This document shows, piece by piece, positions 2,803 to 25,231 of a stretch of DNA of 64,000 bases; the stretch's first letter is position 1; each line of letters begins with the position of its first letter. The stretch spans positions 3,004,040 to 3,068,039 of the forward strand of contig NZ_KV917376.1 of assembly GCF_002019695.1 (NCBI RefSeq), read 5' to 3'. Both the position numbers and the translations under genes were made by a program. Under the pieces are notes generated by a model. It was given only the letters and a program-made list of their open reading frames with translations, ran no database searches and had not been told where the DNA came from. The DNA is from Evansella clarkii. GTDB lineage: Bacteria > Bacillota > Bacilli > Bacillales > Salisediminibacteriaceae.

Positions 2803-4098
2803 TTGCGCGAACATACAATTCATGATTTTGAAACGGGCTCATTAAATGTGCATGTACTGCCATCAACCACGTATAAAACAAATACGCTGCTGCTTCATAT
2901 GAGATCTTCTCTTGATAAAGACACTGTTACAAAAAGGGCACTGCTGCCTTATGTCCTTCAAAGCGGTACGGAAAAGCATCCATCAAGAAAAGATATTCGT
3001 CATGAGCTTGACGAATTGTACGGAGCAACACTTAATGTGGATGTTTCTAAAAAAGGTGAAAACCACTTGATGACATTCAAGATGGAAGTTGCTAATGAAA
3101 AGTTTTTGACGGATGACCGGCCGCTGCTTGAGCGGGCCATCGAGATGCTTGCTTCTGTCGTTCTTCACCCGAGAACGTTAAATGACGCTTTTGACAAATC
3201 TATCGTTGATGGAGAAAAACGGGCGTTAAAACAAAAACTGGCTTCTGTGTATGATGATAAAATGAGATACGCAAATAAGCGTTTAACAGAAGAAATGTGT
3301 GAGGATGAACCGTTCAGTCTGTTTGTCCTTGGAGATTCAGAGGATCTCTCAGAAATTGATGAAAAATCCTTATATGATTATTATCTAGAAGCAATTGAAA
3401 ACGACCAGCTTGATTTATACATTATTGGTGATGTAGAGGAATCAGAAATGGAAACCTTAATTTCCAGACATTTTGGCGCTCTGGGAAAAAACGAGCGAAA
3501 AGAGAAAAAAGTAAATAAAGCGGTGCAGAAACACAGGGAAAATTCCCGTGAAGTAATTGAGGAACAGGATGTTCAGCAAGGGAAGCTTCATATAGGCTAC
3601 CGTACTTATACAACGTACGACGATGCTGATTACTTTCCTCTGCAGCTGTTTAATGGAGTGTTCGGAGGATTTTCCCATTCGAAATTATTTATTAACGTCA
3701 GGGAAAAGGCCAGCCTTGCCTATTATGCGGCTTCAAGAGTGGAAAGCCATAAAGGCCTGCTCATCGTGATGTCAGGTATAGAAAGCAATAAATTTAATGA
3801 TGCAACGGAAATCATTTTTAAACAGATGGAAGATATGAAAAAGGGGAATTTCTCTGAAGATGATTTAGAGCAGACAAAAGCTGTATTGAAAAACCAGCTT
3901 CTGGAAACAATGGATGTTCCGAGAGGGTTCATCGAACTGGAGTATCATAACAGGCTGTCAGGCACGGAACGCCCGCTTTCCGGCTGGATGGATGAAATCG
4001 ACAGTGTGACGAAGGAAGATGTTGTAAGGGTTGCAGAGAAAATAAAGCTTGATACGGTTTATTTCCTGAAGGGGAAGGAGGAAGCAGGTAATGAATAA
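2803..4098 (+). CDS. ymfF: M16-family peptidase-like protein YmfF (non-catalytic partner)
   Basis: 431 residues of the M16 (pitrilysin/insulinase) fold. The zinc-binding HxxEH motif is absent (LLPYVLQSGTEKHPS lies where it would be), so this is the inactive half of an M16 pair. The start is TTG at 2803 behind GGGAGG. It overlaps ymfH by eight bases, implying a coupled heterodimer. In B. subtilis the ymfF/ymfH/ymfI group has been linked to 5-aminopentanol modification of translation factor EF-P. The step done by the peptidases is not clear to me. Confidence 0.88.
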   Translation: MREHTIHDFETGSLNVHVLPSTTYKTNTLLLHMRSSLDKDTVTKRALLPYVLQSGTEKHPSRKDIRHELDELYGATLNVDVSKKGENHLMTFKMEVANEKFLTDDRPLLERAIEMLASVVLHPRTLNDAFDKSIVDGEKRALKQKLASVYDDKMRYANKRLTEEMCEDEPFSLFVLGDSEDLSEIDEKSLYDYYLEAIENDQLDLYIIGDVEESEMETLISRHFGALGKNERKEKKVNKAVQKHRENSREVIEEQDVQQGKLHIGYRTYTTYDDADYFPLQLFNGVFGGFSHSKLFINVREKASLAYYAASRVESHKGLLIVMSGIESNKFNDATEIIFKQMEDMKKGNFSEDDLEQTKAVLKNQLLETMDVPRGFIELEYHNRLSGTERPLSGWMDEIDSVTKEDVVRVAEKIKLDTVYFLKGKEEAGNE

Positions 4099-5386
4099 AG
4101 TAACATTTGATCAGCTGCAGGAGACTCTTTACCATGAAGAGCTTCCAAACGGACTATCAGTATATGTACTCCCAAAAAAGGGATTCAATAAAACCTTTGC
4201 TACGTTCACAACGAAATATGGGTCTATTGACAACCATTTCATACCTCTTGGCAAAAAGGATGCTATTAAGGTGCCGGACGGGATTGCACATTTTCTGGAG
4301 CATAAACTGTTTGAAAATGAAGAAGGGGAAGATGTATTCCAGCAGTTCAGCAAACAGGGAGCATCCGCTAACGCATTCACGAGCTTCACACGAACAGCGT
4401 ATTTATTCTCAAGTACGATGGAGATAGAAAAAAATCTGGAAACATTGCTTGATTTTGTCCAGGACCCTTATTTTTCAGAGCAGTCAGTGGAAAAAGAAAA
4501 AGGGATTATTGAACAGGAAATTAAGATGTATGATGATAATCCGGACTGGAGAAATTACTTCGGGCTAATCAGCAGCATGTATGAATATCACCCGGTGAAA
4601 ATCGATATTGCAGGTACAGCGGCATCTATTAACGACATTACGAAAGATATGTTATATACGTGCTATGAAACGTTCTATCACCCGAGCAACATGGTTGTAT
4701 TTGTAGTAGGGAACCTGGAACCGGAGAAAATAATCGAACAAATCAGGAACAACCAGGCGAAAAAGGATTTTAAGGCACCGGAGAAGATCGAGCGCTTTTT
4801 CGAAGCCGAACCAGAGGAAGTGCATGAAAAAGAAACGACCATTAAGATGAATGTAAATACTGGGAAATCGTTAACAGGCTTTAAAGATAAAAGGCCTGAT
4901 AAGCAGGGCACCGACCTGCTGAAGCACGAACTGTCCATTCAGCTGCTGCTGGAAATGATGTTCGGGCAGAGCAGCGAAAATTATCAGAAGCTTTTTGATG
5001 AAGGACTTATTGACGACAGTTTTTCTTTTGATTATTCAGGTGAATACGGTTTCGGCTTTTCTGTTATCGGAGGAGATACAGACCACCCTGAAAAGCTGGC
5101 GGGCCGTGTAAAAGAGATGACAAATGAATTCATTTCCGGGAATATCGATAAGGGACAGATGGAGAGTATCAGAAAGAAAAAGATCGGATACTTTCTCCGT
5201 TCCCTTAACTCACCGGAATTTATCGCAAACCAGTTTACACGCTACCAGTTTAATAAAATGGATCTTTTTGAAGTCATCCCAACACTGGAGTCACTAACGG
5301 AGCAGGATCTTGAAAATGCTATGAAAGAGCATTTTAATACAGAAACTCAGATGAGTATATGTTATATAAAGCCAAAGGGAGAGTAA
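4091..5386 (+). CDS. ymfH: M16-family zinc peptidase YmfH (catalytic subunit)
   Basis: 431 residues with an intact zinc-binding HFLEH (HxxEH) near residue 68. A downstream glutamate ligand is expected in the EKEKGIIEQEIKMY region near 140-155. Together with the overlapping ymfF it should form an M16 heterodimer with one active and one inactive subunit, as in mitochondrial processing peptidase-like complexes. It is followed one base later by ymfI, so ymfF-ymfH-ymfI form an operon. Linkage to EF-P modification is established for the B. subtilis locus; the substrate remains inferred. Confidence 0.92.
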   Translation: MNKVTFDQLQETLYHEELPNGLSVYVLPKKGFNKTFATFTTKYGSIDNHFIPLGKKDAIKVPDGIAHFLEHKLFENEEGEDVFQQFSKQGASANAFTSFTRTAYLFSSTMEIEKNLETLLDFVQDPYFSEQSVEKEKGIIEQEIKMYDDNPDWRNYFGLISSMYEYHPVKIDIAGTAASINDITKDMLYTCYETFYHPSNMVVFVVGNLEPEKIIEQIRNNQAKKDFKAPEKIERFFEAEPEEVHEKETTIKMNVNTGKSLTGFKDKRPDKQGTDLLKHELSIQLLLEMMFGQSSENYQKLFDEGLIDDSFSFDYSGEYGFGFSVIGGDTDHPEKLAGRVKEMTNEFISGNIDKGQMESIRKKKIGYFLRSLNSPEFIANQFTRYQFNKMDLFEVIPTLESLTEQDLENAMKEHFNTETQMSICYIKPKGE

Positions 5387-20250: not shown

Positions 20251-20280
20251 AAACGATGCCAAATTCGGCATCTTTTTTGT
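20251..20280 (+). terminator. Rho-independent terminator after korB
   Basis: GATGCC / GGCATC stem (20255-20260 and 20267-20272) followed by TTTTTTGTTTT. Confidence 0.8.
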
Positions 20281-20333: not shown

Positions 20334-20447
20334 TTTATCGGCGAAGTTTTCGCATTTATCAGCGAAATCATTATTTTATCGGCGAAATACGAAATATATC
20401 GGCGAAATTTACAATTTATCGGCGAAAAGAAATTTTTCGCCTGATAA
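20334..20447 (+). repeat. Array of TTTATCGGCGAAA units, 20-21 bp period
   Basis: Five units at 20334, 20355, 20375, 20395 and 20415 match TTTATCGGCGAAA with at most one or two changes each, spaced 21, 20, 20 and 20 bases. A sixth, inverted copy (TTTCGCCTGATAA, 20435-20447) closes the array. The intervening 7-8 bases are AT-rich and differ. An inverted counterpart lies at 25137-25231. Frames across the array are spurious. Confidence 0.88.
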
Positions 20448-20493
20448 CCAACTACTCTTTTATATTTTTGTCCATACTCCATGGACTGTTCTG

Positions 20494-20522
20494 TTTACGA
20501 ATACACGCCCCCGTGCTAAAAT
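20494..20522 (+). promoter_or_regulatory. Putative sigma-A promoter for tdh-kbl
   Basis: TTTACG (20494-20499), a 17-base spacer, and TAAAAT (20517-20522), about 80 bases before tdh and just after the repeat array. Confidence 0.5.
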
Positions 20523-20603
20523 AAATTGAATCAACCTACAAAATAATAGATTCATAAGATCGTATAAAAGCAATCATATTTATTTTATAAAGGTGGGAAA
20601 CAA

Positions 20604-21647
20604 ATGGAGAAGAAAATGATGAAAGCGATCGTGAAGGAAGACAGAGCTCCAGGTGCTGTTCTCAGAGAAGTACCAGTTCCGGAAATCGGAGACCAGGAAG
20701 TTCTTATTAAAGTGAAAGCAACCTCTATCTGCGGCACTGACCTTCATATTTATACATGGGATGAATGGTCCCAAAGCAGGGTCAAGCCTCCTTATGTATT
20801 CGGCCACGAATTTGCAGGAGTAGTAGTGGAAAAAGGGAAACTTGTAAAGAATGTAGAAGTAGGGGACCATGTATCAGCAGAAACACATATTGTTTGCGGA
20901 CACTGCCCGCAATGTTTAACCGGCCAGGCCCATATTTGCGCAAACACAGAGATTATCGGTGTGGACCGTAACGGCTGTTTTGCAGAGTATGTAGCACTTC
21001 CAGCAGAAAACATGTGGAAAAACGATCCGGCACTGCCTTTCGACGTGGCTAGTGTACAGGAGCCGTTTGGAAACGCTGTGCATACAGTGCTGGCTGGAGA
21101 CGTGGCAGGTAAAACAGTTGCCGTTATTGGCTGCGGGCCGATTGGCATCATGGCTGTCGGAGTTGCAAAAGCAGCGGGCGCATCACAGGTTATCGCTTTT
21201 GACCTGAACGATTACCGCCTTGAACTTGCGAAAGAAATGGGAGCAACAACGATCGTCAATTCCAAAAATGAAGATCCACTTGAAGTTGCGTCCAGGCTTA
21301 CTGACGGAAACGGAATAGACGTGATTTGTGAAATGAGCGGCCACCCGATTGCTATGGATCAAGGTTTCAAAATGGTTACAAACGGCGGGCGCGTATCTAT
21401 TTTAAGCCTACCGGTAAGACCGGTTGAAATCGATGTTACAAATGATATTGTGTTTAAAGGAATCACTGTCCAGGGTATTACAGGACGCAAAATGTACGAA
21501 ACATGGCAGCAAGTTTCCGGCCTGCTAAGCTCAGGTCAGGTTGACGTAAAGCCAATGATTACCCATCACTTTCCTTTAGAAGAATTTGAAAAGGGTTTTG
21601 ACTTGATGAAAGCAGGAAAATGTGGAAAAGTGGTATTACACCCATAA
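20604..21647 (+). CDS. tdh: L-threonine 3-dehydrogenase
   Basis: 347 residues, zinc medium-chain dehydrogenase. Catalytic zinc ligands lie in SICGTDLHIYTWDEW (Cys43) and GHEFAG. Structural zinc cysteines lie in HIVCGHCPQCLTGQAHIC (near 98-115). The Rossmann loop is IGCGPIGIMAVG near 170. It oxidises threonine to 2-amino-3-ketobutyrate with NAD+. kbl follows 24 bases later and performs the next step, giving glycine and acetyl-CoA. Confidence 0.96.
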   Translation: MEKKMMKAIVKEDRAPGAVLREVPVPEIGDQEVLIKVKATSICGTDLHIYTWDEWSQSRVKPPYVFGHEFAGVVVEKGKLVKNVEVGDHVSAETHIVCGHCPQCLTGQAHICANTEIIGVDRNGCFAEYVALPAENMWKNDPALPFDVASVQEPFGNAVHTVLAGDVAGKTVAVIGCGPIGIMAVGVAKAAGASQVIAFDLNDYRLELAKEMGATTIVNSKNEDPLEVASRLTDGNGIDVICEMSGHPIAMDQGFKMVTNGGRVSILSLPVRPVEIDVTNDIVFKGITVQGITGRKMYETWQQVSGLLSSGQVDVKPMITHHFPLEEFEKGFDLMKAGKCGKVVLHP

Positions 21648-21671
21648 GTGAAAAAAGGGAGGACTGTACTA

Positions 21672-22847
21672 ATGAAAGGTTTTGAGTATTTAGAACAGGA
21701 ATTGCAGGAAATGAAGGAAGAAGGAGTATTTCGCTCTTTAGTGCCTTTAGAATCAGACCAGGCAGCTACAGTAGTAATTAACGGGAAAGAAGTTATACAG
21801 CTCTCTTCAAACAACTATTTAGGATTGACAGCGCACCCCCGTATGAAAGAAGCTGCAGTAAAAGCGGCTGAAAAATACGGTGCAGGTACTGGTTCCGTAA
21901 GAACTATTGCAGGTACCTTCTCTATGCACGAAGAGTTTGAGAAAAAACTTGCTGAATTTAAGCACACAGAAGCAACGCTCGTGCTGCAATCAGGTTTTAC
22001 AGCTAACCAGGCAATTCTGTCATCTATTTTAACAAAAGAAGACGTAGTGATTTCCGATGAGCTAAACCACGCTTCTATTATTGACGGTATCCGTCTTACA
22101 AAAGCTGCAAGAAAAATTTATAAGCATGTGGACATGGAAAGTCTTGAGGAAGCACTTAAGGAATCCCAGGGTTACCGTAAACGTCTCGTAGTAACTGACG
22201 GAGTATTTTCCATGGATGGAAACATCGCTCCTCTTCCTGAAATCGTAGAACTGTGTGAAAAATATGATGCACTCATTATGGTGGACGATGCTCATTCCAG
22301 CGGTGTTCTCGGTCGCAACGGACGTGGATCTGTAGATCACTTTGATCTTAACGGCCGCGTTCATATCCAGGTTGGGACGCTTAGTAAAGCAATTGGAGTA
22401 CTTGGAGGCTATATTGCCAGCACACAGGCTGTAAGAGACTACCTGATCCATAAAGGACGTCCGTTTCTTTTCAGCACTTCCCATCCTCCGGCAGTAACTG
22501 CGGCATGTTCTGAAGCCATCGATATATTACTGGAAGAGCCGGAAAGAATTGATCGTCTGTGGGATAACACAAAATTCTTTAAAGAAGGACTTCATAAACT
22601 TGGATTTAAGACAGGCAGAAGCGATACGCCAATCACTCCTGTTCTTGTAGGAGACGGTGCAAAATCTCATGAACTGTCTGACAAACTGTTAACTTACGGC
22701 GTTTTTGCCCAGGGAATCGCATTCCCGACAGTTCCTAAAGGATCTGCCCGTGTCCGCACGATCGTAACGGCAGAGCACACGAAGGAACAGCTTCAGGAAG
22801 CTCTTGATGCATTTGAAAAAGCAGGGAAAGAACTTGGGTTAATCTAA
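21672..22847 (+). CDS. kbl: Glycine C-acetyltransferase (2-amino-3-ketobutyrate CoA ligase)
   Basis: 391 residues from ATG at 21672, eight bases after AAGGGAGGA; the in-frame GTG at 21648 has no ribosome-binding site. It is an alpha-oxoamine synthase of fold type [11 protein letters not shown] binds the cofactor ring, and the PLP lysine is in [12 protein letters not shown] near residue 238. It cleaves 2-amino-3-ketobutyrate with CoA to glycine and acetyl-CoA. It pairs with tdh. BioF is a close relative, but the operon decides the call. Confidence 0.95.
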
Positions 22848-22857
22848 TCGAGTTTAA

Positions 22858-22918
22858 CAGGAAGACTGACTTTAAAAGCTGTTTTGTATTATGGCTTGCA
22901 GGTCAGTCTTCCTTTTTG
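22858..22918 (+). terminator. Hairpin terminator after kbl
   Basis: GAAGACTGAC (22861-22870) pairs with GTCAGTCTTC (22902-22911), and inner AAGC / GCTT extends the structure. It is followed by CTTTTTG. Confidence 0.75.
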
Positions 22919-23044
22919 TGTCGAAAAAATGAACGGGCCCACCCTGCTATTGTGATTCAGCGAAAAACCCTTTATACTTATAGGTTGTGAGACATATATC
23001 CAATGAAAGTCTGAAAAAAATCCAAAAAAGGAGTTTCGGTATAA

Positions 23045-24592
23045 ATGAATGAAGAACAGCGAAAACAGCAGACGCAGACTCTGGAAGGATCTGTTTCCGC
23101 GGACAAAAAATCCGGACTGGAAAAAGACTATTCCCAATATTTTCAGACGACCTATGTAGCGCCTGACCTGAAAAAGGCAAAGAAACGCGGAAAAGAAGAT
23201 GTTGAAATCCATTATGATTTTGATATTCCTGAAAATATGAAAGGGATCGGAAAAGGAAAGAAGTTTCTGATCCGCACTTACGGCTGCCAGATGAATGAAC
23301 ATGATTCGGAAAATATGGCAGGAATCCTTCTGAACATGGGATTTCAGTCCACTTCCAGCACAGAAGATGCAGATGTTATCCTTCTTAATACATGCGCTAT
23401 CAGAGAAAATGCTGAAAATAAAGTTTTTGGTGAAATTGGCCATTTAAAAACACTTAAACGGGACCGTCCCGAGCTTATTGTCGGTGTCTGCGGCTGTATG
23501 TCACAGGAAGAAGCTGTAGTAAACAGAATTCTCCAGAAGCACCAGCACGTTGACCTGATTTTTGGGACGCATAATATTCACCGCCTTCCGACACTGCTGC
23601 AAAACGCTATTTTTAACAAAGAAATGGTTGTTGAAGTATGGTCAAAAGAAGGGGACATCATTGAAAATATGCCCCGTGCACGTAAAGGACAGTTTCAGGG
23701 CTGGGTTAACATTATGTATGGGTGCGATAAATTCTGTACGTACTGTATCGTTCCGTATACACGTGGGAAAGAACGAAGCCGCCGCCCTGAAGATATTATC
23801 GAAGAAGTGCGCCACCTTGCACGAAATGGCTATAAAGAAATCACGCTTCTCGGTCAGAATGTGAACGCCTACGGCAAAGACCTGGCGGATATGGAATACG
23901 GACTCGGGGATTTAATGGACGAGATCCGTAAGATCGATATACCGCGGGTAAGGTTTACAACGAGCCATCCGAGGGACTTTGATGATCATTTAATCGAAGT
24001 TCTTGCCAAAGGCGGGAACCTTGTAGAGCATATTCATCTGCCTGTCCAAAGCGGCAACAGTGAAGTGCTGAAGCTGATGGCAAGAAAATATACACGTGAG
24101 CAATATGTAACGCTCGCAAATAAAATTAAAAAAGCTATACCACATGCTTCCTTTACAACTGATATCATTGTCGGATTCCCGAATGAAACAGAGGAGCAGT
24201 TTGAGGATACCCTTTCCCTTGTGAAAGAAATGGAGTATGACAGTGCATACACATACATTTATTCACCTCGTGAAGGCACTCCGGCTGCCAAAATGCAGGA
24301 TAATGTACCAATGGAAGTGAAGAGAGAGCGTCTGGCCAGGCTGAACGAAGTGGTTAATGAAATTTCGGCGAGAAAAAATAAAGAATACGAAGGACGGGTT
24401 GTTGAAGTTCTTGTAGAAGGGGAAAGCAAGAAAAACCCTGATGTTCTTTCCGGACGTACAAGAACTAACAAACTTGTTAACTTTAAAGGGCCGAAATCAG
24501 CAATTGGCCAGCTTGTAAACGTAAAAATAACAGAAGCTAAGTCATGGTCACTGGATGGCCAGGCAGCAGAAACGGCAGAGGTGAAAAACTAA
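23045..24592 (+). CDS. miaB: tRNA-2-methylthio-N6-dimethylallyladenosine synthase MiaB
   Basis: 515 residues with an N-terminal extension of about 65 residues typical of Bacillus. The UPF0004 domain holds the auxiliary-cluster cysteines in [20 protein letters not shown] and GVCGCM. The radical-SAM motif is GCDKFCTYC (CxxxCxxC) near 225, and a TRAM domain ends the protein. It adds the methylthio group to i6A37 of tRNA; MiaA, which makes i6A, is encoded at 33150. It overlaps ricA by one base. Confidence 0.97.
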
Positions 24593-25014
24593 TGGGAAAT
24601 TATTCAAAACAGGAAGTTGTAGACCGCGCGAAAGAACTAGCTAAGATGATCGCTGAGACAGAAGAGGTAGATTTCTTCAAACGTGCAGAGCTGCAGATTA
24701 ATGAGCATCTGAAAGTGCAGGAGATCATCGGAAAAATTAAATCGGAACAGAAAGAAGCGGTAAATCTTCAGCATTACCAGAAAACAGAAGCTTTGAAAGC
24801 TGTGGAGGAGAAAATTGATGCACTGCAGGATGAGCTGGACAGCATTCCTCTCGTAAAGGAATTTAAGCAGTCACAGCAGGAAGTGAATAATCTGCTTCAG
24901 CTTGTAAGCAGCACTATTTCCAATACAGTAACAAACGAAATTATTAAGTCAACTGGCGGAGATTTGCTCAAAGGGACTACTACAAAGAGTCCGTTTGACT
25001 CTCACGGCTGCTAG
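24592..25014 (+). CDS. ricA: RicA (YmcA) regulatory protein
   Basis: 140 residues from the ATG that overlaps the miaB stop (TAATG), with AGAGGTG upstream. It is helical (YlbF/YmcA family) and ends in a cysteine (SHGC). RicA, RicF and RicT form an iron-sulfur complex that helps RNase Y mature operon mRNAs and supports competence, sporulation and biofilm. Coupling to miaB and the cotE neighbourhood match B. subtilis. Confidence 0.93.
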   Translation: MGNYSKQEVVDRAKELAKMIAETEEVDFFKRAELQINEHLKVQEIIGKIKSEQKEAVNLQHYQKTEALKAVEEKIDALQDELDSIPLVKEFKQSQQEVNNLLQLVSSTISNTVTNEIIKSTGGDLLKGTTTKSPFDSHGC

Positions 25015-25030
25015 TATTTAATAAAAAATA

Positions 25031-25066
25031 CGGAAACCATCGTTCTTCGGGGCGGTGGTTTTTATG
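25031..25066 (+). terminator. Rho-independent terminator after ricA
   Basis: AAACCATCG (25034-25042) pairs with CGGTGGTTT (25053-25061), followed by TTTAT. Confidence 0.78.
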
Positions 25067-25136
25067 TTGCACAGGAGAGGCGGCAGGCAGCTGGTTTATG
25101 GCAGTTCTTCAGCTATGGGTTTACCATGTATTGGAT

Positions 25137-25231
25137 TTTAGCCGATAAACCAGGTGATTTCGCCGATAAAATTAATATTTCGCCGATAAATCACCCCACT
25201 TCGCCGATAAAAAAACAATTTCGCCGATATA
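25137..25231 (-). repeat. Inverted array of the TTTATCGGCGAAA unit, 20-21 bp period
   Basis: Read on the plus strand the unit is TTTCGCCGATAAA, at 25137, 25158, 25178, 25199 and 25219 (spacings 21, 20, 21 and 20). Units 2 and 3 are perfect; the first, fourth and fifth have one or two changes. It is the same family as 20334-20447 in the opposite orientation. The two arrays bracket tdh-kbl-miaB-ricA. Like the first array, it follows a terminator. Confidence 0.88.

Follow-up and report, generated by a model that had tools for sequence, protein, structure and literature searches.

The window analyzed here is a stretch of 64,000 nucleotides from Evansella clarkii (contig NZ_KV917376.1, positions 3,004,040 to 3,068,039), whose genome, designated G000, comprises 5.48 Mb in 7 contigs. 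In this window, the genes tdh, kbl, miaB and ricA are flanked by two arrays of a direct 13-bp unit, arrays A and B, which are inverted relative to each other and repeat with a period of 20-21 bp. The positions of these features in the window are as follows:

~20254..20280, plus strand: terminator-like hairpin and T run upstream of array A (by eye)
20334..20427, plus strand: array A, five direct 13-bp units (starts 20334, 20355, 20375, 20395, 20415; spacings 21, 20, 20, 20)
~20428..20443, minus strand: inverted sixth unit past array A, degenerate, with one extra base (by eye)
~25036..25065, plus strand: terminator-like hairpin and T run after ricA and before array B (by eye)
25137..25231, minus strand: array B, five direct units (starts 25137, 25158, 25178, 25199, 25219; spacings 21, 20, 21, 20)

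A search of the window for TTTATCGGCGAAA with up to 2 mismatches yielded 14 matches against 2.38 expected, a count reached by none of 100 shuffles (maximum 7). Ten of the 14 matches belong to arrays A and B, five to each, which bears out the two inverted arrays described in the initial annotation; the inverted sixth unit that it described after array A is recognizable as well, and so are terminator-like hairpins where it placed terminators before both arrays. The special bracket that it saw around tdh-kbl-miaB-ricA, however, is incidental, as the 5.2-Mb contig holds at least 19 loci of this kind, arrays A and B among them, and the array strand follows no clear rule.

Phased arrays in Evansella clarkii and other Bacillales

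The pair TATCGGC-N13/14-TATCGGC occurs 57 times in G000 and its reversed control does not occur. Of the at least 19 array loci, 17 were mapped in fetched stretches of the genome, and two, of the TATTGG type, are cut by an insertion sequence (IS). Five units are present in 16 of the 17 mapped arrays (one of these is split 3+2 by an IS) and six in the other, and in 13 of the 17 the last unit is directly followed by an inverted half unit that ends the array, in the form TTTATCGGCG-ACN-CGCC[G/A]ATA. The spacers, regarded at first as unconserved, do vary among loci but are not wholly free, since AT-rich spacers of 7 nt tend to alternate with GC-richer ones of 8 nt. Because the spacers differ everywhere except in one near-identical pair of arrays 1.2 kb apart (C1:4128096 and 4129290), the arrays are not the near-identical, palindromic dispersed copies that define repetitive extragenic palindromic (REP) sequences or bacterial interspersed mosaic elements (BIME). 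The mapped loci are dispersed, at least 0.55 Mb from dnaA; judged by eye and with the terminus assumed opposite dnaA, six arrays run with the replication fork and 11 against it, from which no rule of orientation was drawn. Predicted DNA curvature, computed with wedge parameters, is mildly raised, 13 of 15 arrays lying above their own shuffles (mean z 1.2). G000 contains several families of the same repeat length, including at least the TATYGGCGA, CTTGTTGCGATTTC, TCAATGAACGAAA and CGTTGAT types. Arrays of 20-21 bp with other units were seen in the fetched stretches L037 (8521-8677), L044 (10074-10145), L049 (9967-10060), L269 (10395-10467) and L272 (19657-19770), and a period-52 tandem array lies near a 20-21-bp array in L039 (~3200-4100; C1:2741.2-2742.1 kb).

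Beyond this genome, a TATCRRCGA pair at a spacing of 20 or 21 was found in 56 of 397 sampled Bacillales genomes and in 31 of 135 genera, compared with two genomes (1 and 6 matches) for the reversed control. A three-unit scan of named genomes gave at least 119 stretches; among the 80 matches listed, 71 are from Bacillaceae or Planococcaceae, and the genera with three-unit arrays include Neobacillus, Rossellomorea, Lysinibacillus, Cytobacillus, Robertmurraya and Salipaludibacillus. The 130 arrays collected from 110 loci have three (9 arrays), four (25), five (45), six (28), seven (5) or more than seven units (18, with up to 16 units), and their spacings are 20 (244 cases), 21 (345), 19 (3) and 22 (3); the 88 arrays of the 71 named loci alone show the same shape. 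As the scan pattern itself demands a spacing of 20 or 21, a free-gap scan and a unit-agnostic scan are fairer tests of the helical phasing postulated in the initial annotation, and both agree with it. When the gap was left free from 4 to 34, spacings of 20, 21 or twice these values accounted for almost all of the matches listed (19 genomes), and 19, 22 and 31 were represented by single cases. The unit-agnostic scan covered 412 kb of G000, most stretches of which had been chosen for arrays, and detected 24 arrays of at least four units at lags 20/21 (two of them counted twice). The overlapping lag pairs 19/20 and 21/22 gave 4 and 5, and no other pair from 12 to 34 gave more than 1. Three of the 24, with other unit types, fall in 147 kb not chosen for arrays. 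In Cytobacillus purgationiresistens (L154, 6190-7001), phased arrays are contained in a larger ~183-bp tandem repeat, five times, and a Chitinophagaceae metagenome-assembled genome (L128, 7668-7928) carries thirteen TATCAGCGA units exactly 21 bp apart, perhaps a coding repeat and unrelated.

Regarding their position, the arrays favor the 3′ ends of genes, in agreement with the initial placement of arrays A and B after terminators. Flanking genes were called with a crude open reading frame (ORF) picker, and their orientation was read in the array direction. At the 71 named loci, they are convergent in 21 cases, divergent in 3 (p=0.0003) and co-directional in 19 and 9; 15 of the 88 arrays lie inside a called ORF, and some have no near neighbor. 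With 39 unnamed loci included, the numbers are 33 convergent, 6 divergent, and 26 and 19 co-directional (84 of 130 arrays). A set of 18 arrays in G000, one of which has another unit, gave 6 convergent, 1 divergent, and 8 and 3 co-directional; five of these 18 overlap ORFs, which, in a check for coding repeats with this crude caller, are only 75-158 codons long. The pooled ratio of convergent to divergent flanks is 39:7 (p=2e-6). The choice of strand relative to co-directional genes is not clear (34:22 pooled, p=0.14; 19:9 at the named loci alone).

Array-wide unit switching between sister species

A sister species (G003), 92% identical to G000 over 4.5 kb, carries arrays at orthologous places, and in 5 of the first 11 aligned pairs the length differs by about one or two whole periods. 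The mobile repeat considered in the initial annotation, spreading into terminator regions, is not supported by this sharing of arrays and these whole-period differences. An array at position 2264547 of G003 is missing in G000, where CGGCGAAA stands at the junction; this site, the one presence/absence difference seen, fits the loss of an array and likewise does not support such spread, and the 8 bases at the junction could be due to chance.

In four arrays with unswitched units, the core differs between the two species at 3 of 180 sites and the spacers at 9 of 118 (p=0.015). In four others (G000 31549, 3900325, 4128096 and 4129290), all G000 units read TATCGG, and 18 of the 20 corresponding positions in G003 are T, giving TATTGG, with the spacing kept. 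Elsewhere in the core of these switched arrays, 7 of 160 sites differ. Of their spacer sites, 37 of 119 do, a divergence of 31% at which the spacers can still be aligned. The array at 1694926 and array A of the window differ from G003 by the same switch; the orthologue of array A consists of five TATTGG-type units with spacers that no longer align, and the spacers of array B are conserved in G003. Over 19 arrays of G003, 42 of 92 units have T, bunched by array to a degree reached in 0 of 20000 permutations, compared with 5 of 87 units in G000; these counts contain three spurious flanking units in G000 (one with T) and at least one in G003. Among arrays that possess an inverted end unit, this unit differs between the species in 4 of the 5 that are fully or mostly switched (the five include locus 3417903/L252, where it is unchanged), compared with 1 of 8 others (p=0.03). 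Deamination of CpG is disfavored as the cause of the switch, because a spacer of the same array retains its TCGG and the arrays are bimodal. G003 is a strong case of homogeneity within arrays; over 17 named genomes the value is mildly above permutation (0.772 vs 0.736, reached by 37 of 5000). The array-wide change of one base implies either that a site and its reader change together or that an unusual homogenizing process is at work.

An IS3-family element within arrays of unrelated sequence

An IS3-family element of 1.52 kb is present in five copies in G000 and one in G003; it was assigned through its orfB (NF033516, 200.7 bits, cut-off 160), orfA giving a partial match below the cut-off. All six copies are located within 20-21-bp arrays of three unrelated unit types, namely TATYGGCGAAA (four), CTTGTTGCGATTTC (one) and TCAATGAACGAAA (one), the last of these arrays being weak (lag count 4 vs 3, though 15 at lags 40-42). 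In two cases, the array is older than the IS, since the array cut at G000 4214459 has an uninterrupted orthologue in G003 and the array cut in G003 has one in G000. Searches with orfB were made in three overlapping samples (397 Bacillales genomes, 26 with E <=1e-60; 18 genomes of one family, 2 with E <=1e-95; 398 genomes of the class, 25 with E <=1e-78). Including those of G000 and G003, 27 copies of this IS3 subgroup in 13 genomes lie in or at the edge of arrays, and beyond these two genomes the units are unlike those of G000. The further array-associated copies are:

G252, two; G010; G212; G187; G103 (weak); G018 (41-bp dimer)
G373, six (one with period 51); G344, four; G305; G080, two; G702

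In 20 sites, the flanks were joined to restore the empty site, and in 18 of them the count at lags 20+21 was higher than at any control lag pair. The two others are L306 (4 vs 5; 9 vs 5 with separate flanks) and L316 (G373 C1:2328102-2331986), where an array-group copy lies in a period-51 repeat (328 windows), a length of the 51-53-nt class of PMC8161180. The counts at the other seven sites, lags 20+21 vs control, are:

L286, 11 vs 0; L288, 22 vs 2; L307, 15 vs 2; L308, 73 vs 2
L325, 38 vs 2; L287, 8 vs 7 (19 at lags 40-42); L294, 0 vs 2 (22 at lags 40-42)

At L308, just one flank carries the array, which stops ~40 bp short of the insertion, and at L286 the far-flank control also shows a signal (13, compared with 0 for the other array copies in that comparison). 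The copy of G702 was tested after the rule linking the subgroup to arrays had been formed, and it fits; in G080, L308 had been flagged before the test, and L325 alone is new evidence. The IS generates duplications of 4 bp without a common sequence. As read by eye, however, all or most duplications of a given genome occupy one position in the unit: next to the GCG edge for 6 of 6 in G000 and G003, where the IS is inserted in both orientations, next to the ACTGTCS edge for 2 of 2 in G252, and ahead of TGANNNAAT for 3 of 4 in G344. The presence of copies in arrays of any sequence at one phase of the unit suggests that these arrays share a physical state in the cell.

The 39 tested copies of more distant IS relatives are not in 20-21-bp arrays; counts at lags 20+21 are 0-2 in 15 of 15 and 0-4 in the other 24 of 24, none of the latter exceeding its own control maximum. 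In a first orfB tree of 26 rows, one branch parts array and non-array rows (100/100). With 46 rows, one change still suffices (support 79/63), and 11 of 12 array rows are grouped (100/98), with G373 near the base. Some observations weigh against a clean contrast. Lags 40-42 are raised at L334 (8 vs 2), L350 (7 vs 5), L300 (3 vs 1) and L321 (4 vs 3), and at L353 (G634 C1:1407190-1411056) a related IS3 copy ends ~12 bp from an array resembling clustered regularly interspaced short palindromic repeats (CRISPR), with 21 repeats of 30 bp at a period of ~66, from 2468 onward in reverse-complement coordinates. At L338 (G522 C1), both flanks of a distant relative carry ATGTTGCA palindromes (type ATGTTGCACTTAGTGCAACAT), and this lineage may therefore target another intergenic repeat.

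Putative protein lattices and comparison with known systems

Conserved units with freer spacers, strict phase, a limited range of unit numbers, array-wide switching and a transposon that appears to recognize the arrangement suggest that each unit carries a protein, and at the level of sequence the binding-site reading of the initial annotation is supported. We therefore lean toward the view that the arrays bring together sites for a putative sequence-specific DNA-binding protein, which would form a lattice used by the transposase as a landing pad. One protein or dimer would occupy each 13-bp unit (core TATCGGCGA), and the spacing of 20/21 bp, two helical turns, would place five or six proteins on one face of the helix. 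Neighbors on this common face would touch each other, giving a short lattice with the inverted half unit as its cap, and the transposase would read this lattice. As for a role in the cell, nucleoid or loop organization, insulation of convergent genes and titration can be guessed at, with chromosome organization as the favored guess.

Several points weigh against this interpretation. The number of units varies, from 3 to 6 in G003 and reaching 16 in other genomes. Most relatives lack the exact unit, among them seven further members of the genus apart from one lone pair match, and some genomes mix unit types within arrays, most using one throughout, so that array homogeneity is not general. The array-binding protein itself is putative, and given the mildly raised curvature, the transposase could respond to DNA shape and not to a protein, which is the main alternative as far as the transposon is concerned. 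A broader proposal, which we put forward tentatively and with some doubt, is that arrays of unrelated sequence (20-21 nt, perhaps also 51-53 nt) represent one kind of functional site in Bacillales, occupied by phased lattices of fast-changing putative DNA-binding proteins, and that the IS3 subgroup recognizes the lattice, not the sequence, and inserts at a fixed place per unit. If true, this subgroup would be a natural probe for an undescribed chromosome-organizing system in which the sequence of the sites is rewritten one array at a time.

Among other explanations, neutral or selfish satellites survive best, and we consider them unlikely. Slippage and unequal exchange would act on the arrays, short-tract conversion would homogenize the units, the period would reflect a mechanical preference of the machinery, and the IS would gather at harmless or oddly shaped DNA. 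The whole-period gains and losses between the sister species are in line with this, as are 41-bp dimers and long repeats seen in Salipaludibacillus and Lysinibacillus, last units that often differ from the inner ones, and the spacer divergence of the switched arrays, which indicates that these arrays turn over fast. Units that change while spacing, spacer length and order persist argue against it, as do the accompanying changes of the inverted unit and the fixed insertion phase, which harmlessness alone does not explain. Transcription of the arrays as structured or decoy RNA is improbable; 52-nt repeats of B. coagulans are reported to be transcribed (PMC8161180 and PMC8625621), and two of the four strands of the window arrays fold better than most shuffles (array A minus strand, z -2.86; array B plus strand, z -2.15), but the strand is not clearly chosen relative to co-directional genes, Rfam families gave no match, and no compensation of spacer changes between the species was seen by eye. 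The dispersal, by a transposase, of a ~110-bp mobile element similar to REP sequences, which the scattered loci of similar size, their palindromic end and the near-identical pair would suit, is more improbable still, as the different spacers at other loci show that these are not recent copies, no clean insertion with a duplication was seen, the array-less site of G000 keeps the 8 bases at its junction, possibly by chance, and the whole IMG/VR scan gave one viral contig with a match.

Iteron arrays and parS clusters are phased direct repeats to which one protein binds cooperatively, at origins or centromeres. The arrays described here are likewise phased direct repeats, but they are dispersed away from dnaA, and their cognate protein is putative. 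They resemble CRISPR arrays in having like units and unlike spacers; the 7-8-nt spacers, however, recur among arrays and are not unique, and the arrays are dispersed and mostly of five units. IS1397 and ISKpn1 are insertion sequences that target REP elements. The IS3 subgroup, like the REP-targeting insertion sequences of PMC1525189, inserts into dispersed intergenic repeats, but REP targets share sequence, whereas the subgroup uses arrays of unrelated sequence and duplications without a common sequence.

No named system had been linked to the unit at first, yet tandem repeats of 20-21 nt and 52 nt with "constant size, variable sequence" are in print (Subirana and Messeguer, PMC8161180; related literature includes PMC6749651 and PMC8625621). 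No function was given for them, and polymerizing nucleoid proteins or small RNA were proposed; Bacillus subtilis 168 is stated in PMC8161180 to have a single tandem repeat. The unit of the G000 arrays is absent from the main text and tables of PMC8161180, to which extent the earlier statement holds. In the open-licence literature, words of the unit sequence retrieved nothing relevant by title among the papers listed, and no report was seen of an IS homing to such arrays or of a unit switch. The repeats of PMC8161180 are non-coding, and the present arrays lie largely outside called ORFs. Both comprise four or more repeats, 20-21 nt in length, that carry a short conserved signal; in both, one genome may hold several families, the distribution among Bacillus-like species is patchy and 52-nt repeats occur in some genomes as well. 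The published families are described as species-specific and without sequence conservation, whereas the core TATCRRCGA spans at least 31 genera. The phase, the five-unit architecture, the inverted cap, unit switching and the associated IS group are added here, among which array-wide unit switching in sister species and an IS3 subgroup in arrays of unrelated sequence are new. The function of constant-size repeats thereby becomes a testable question, with the transposase or its partner as a means of identifying the factor.

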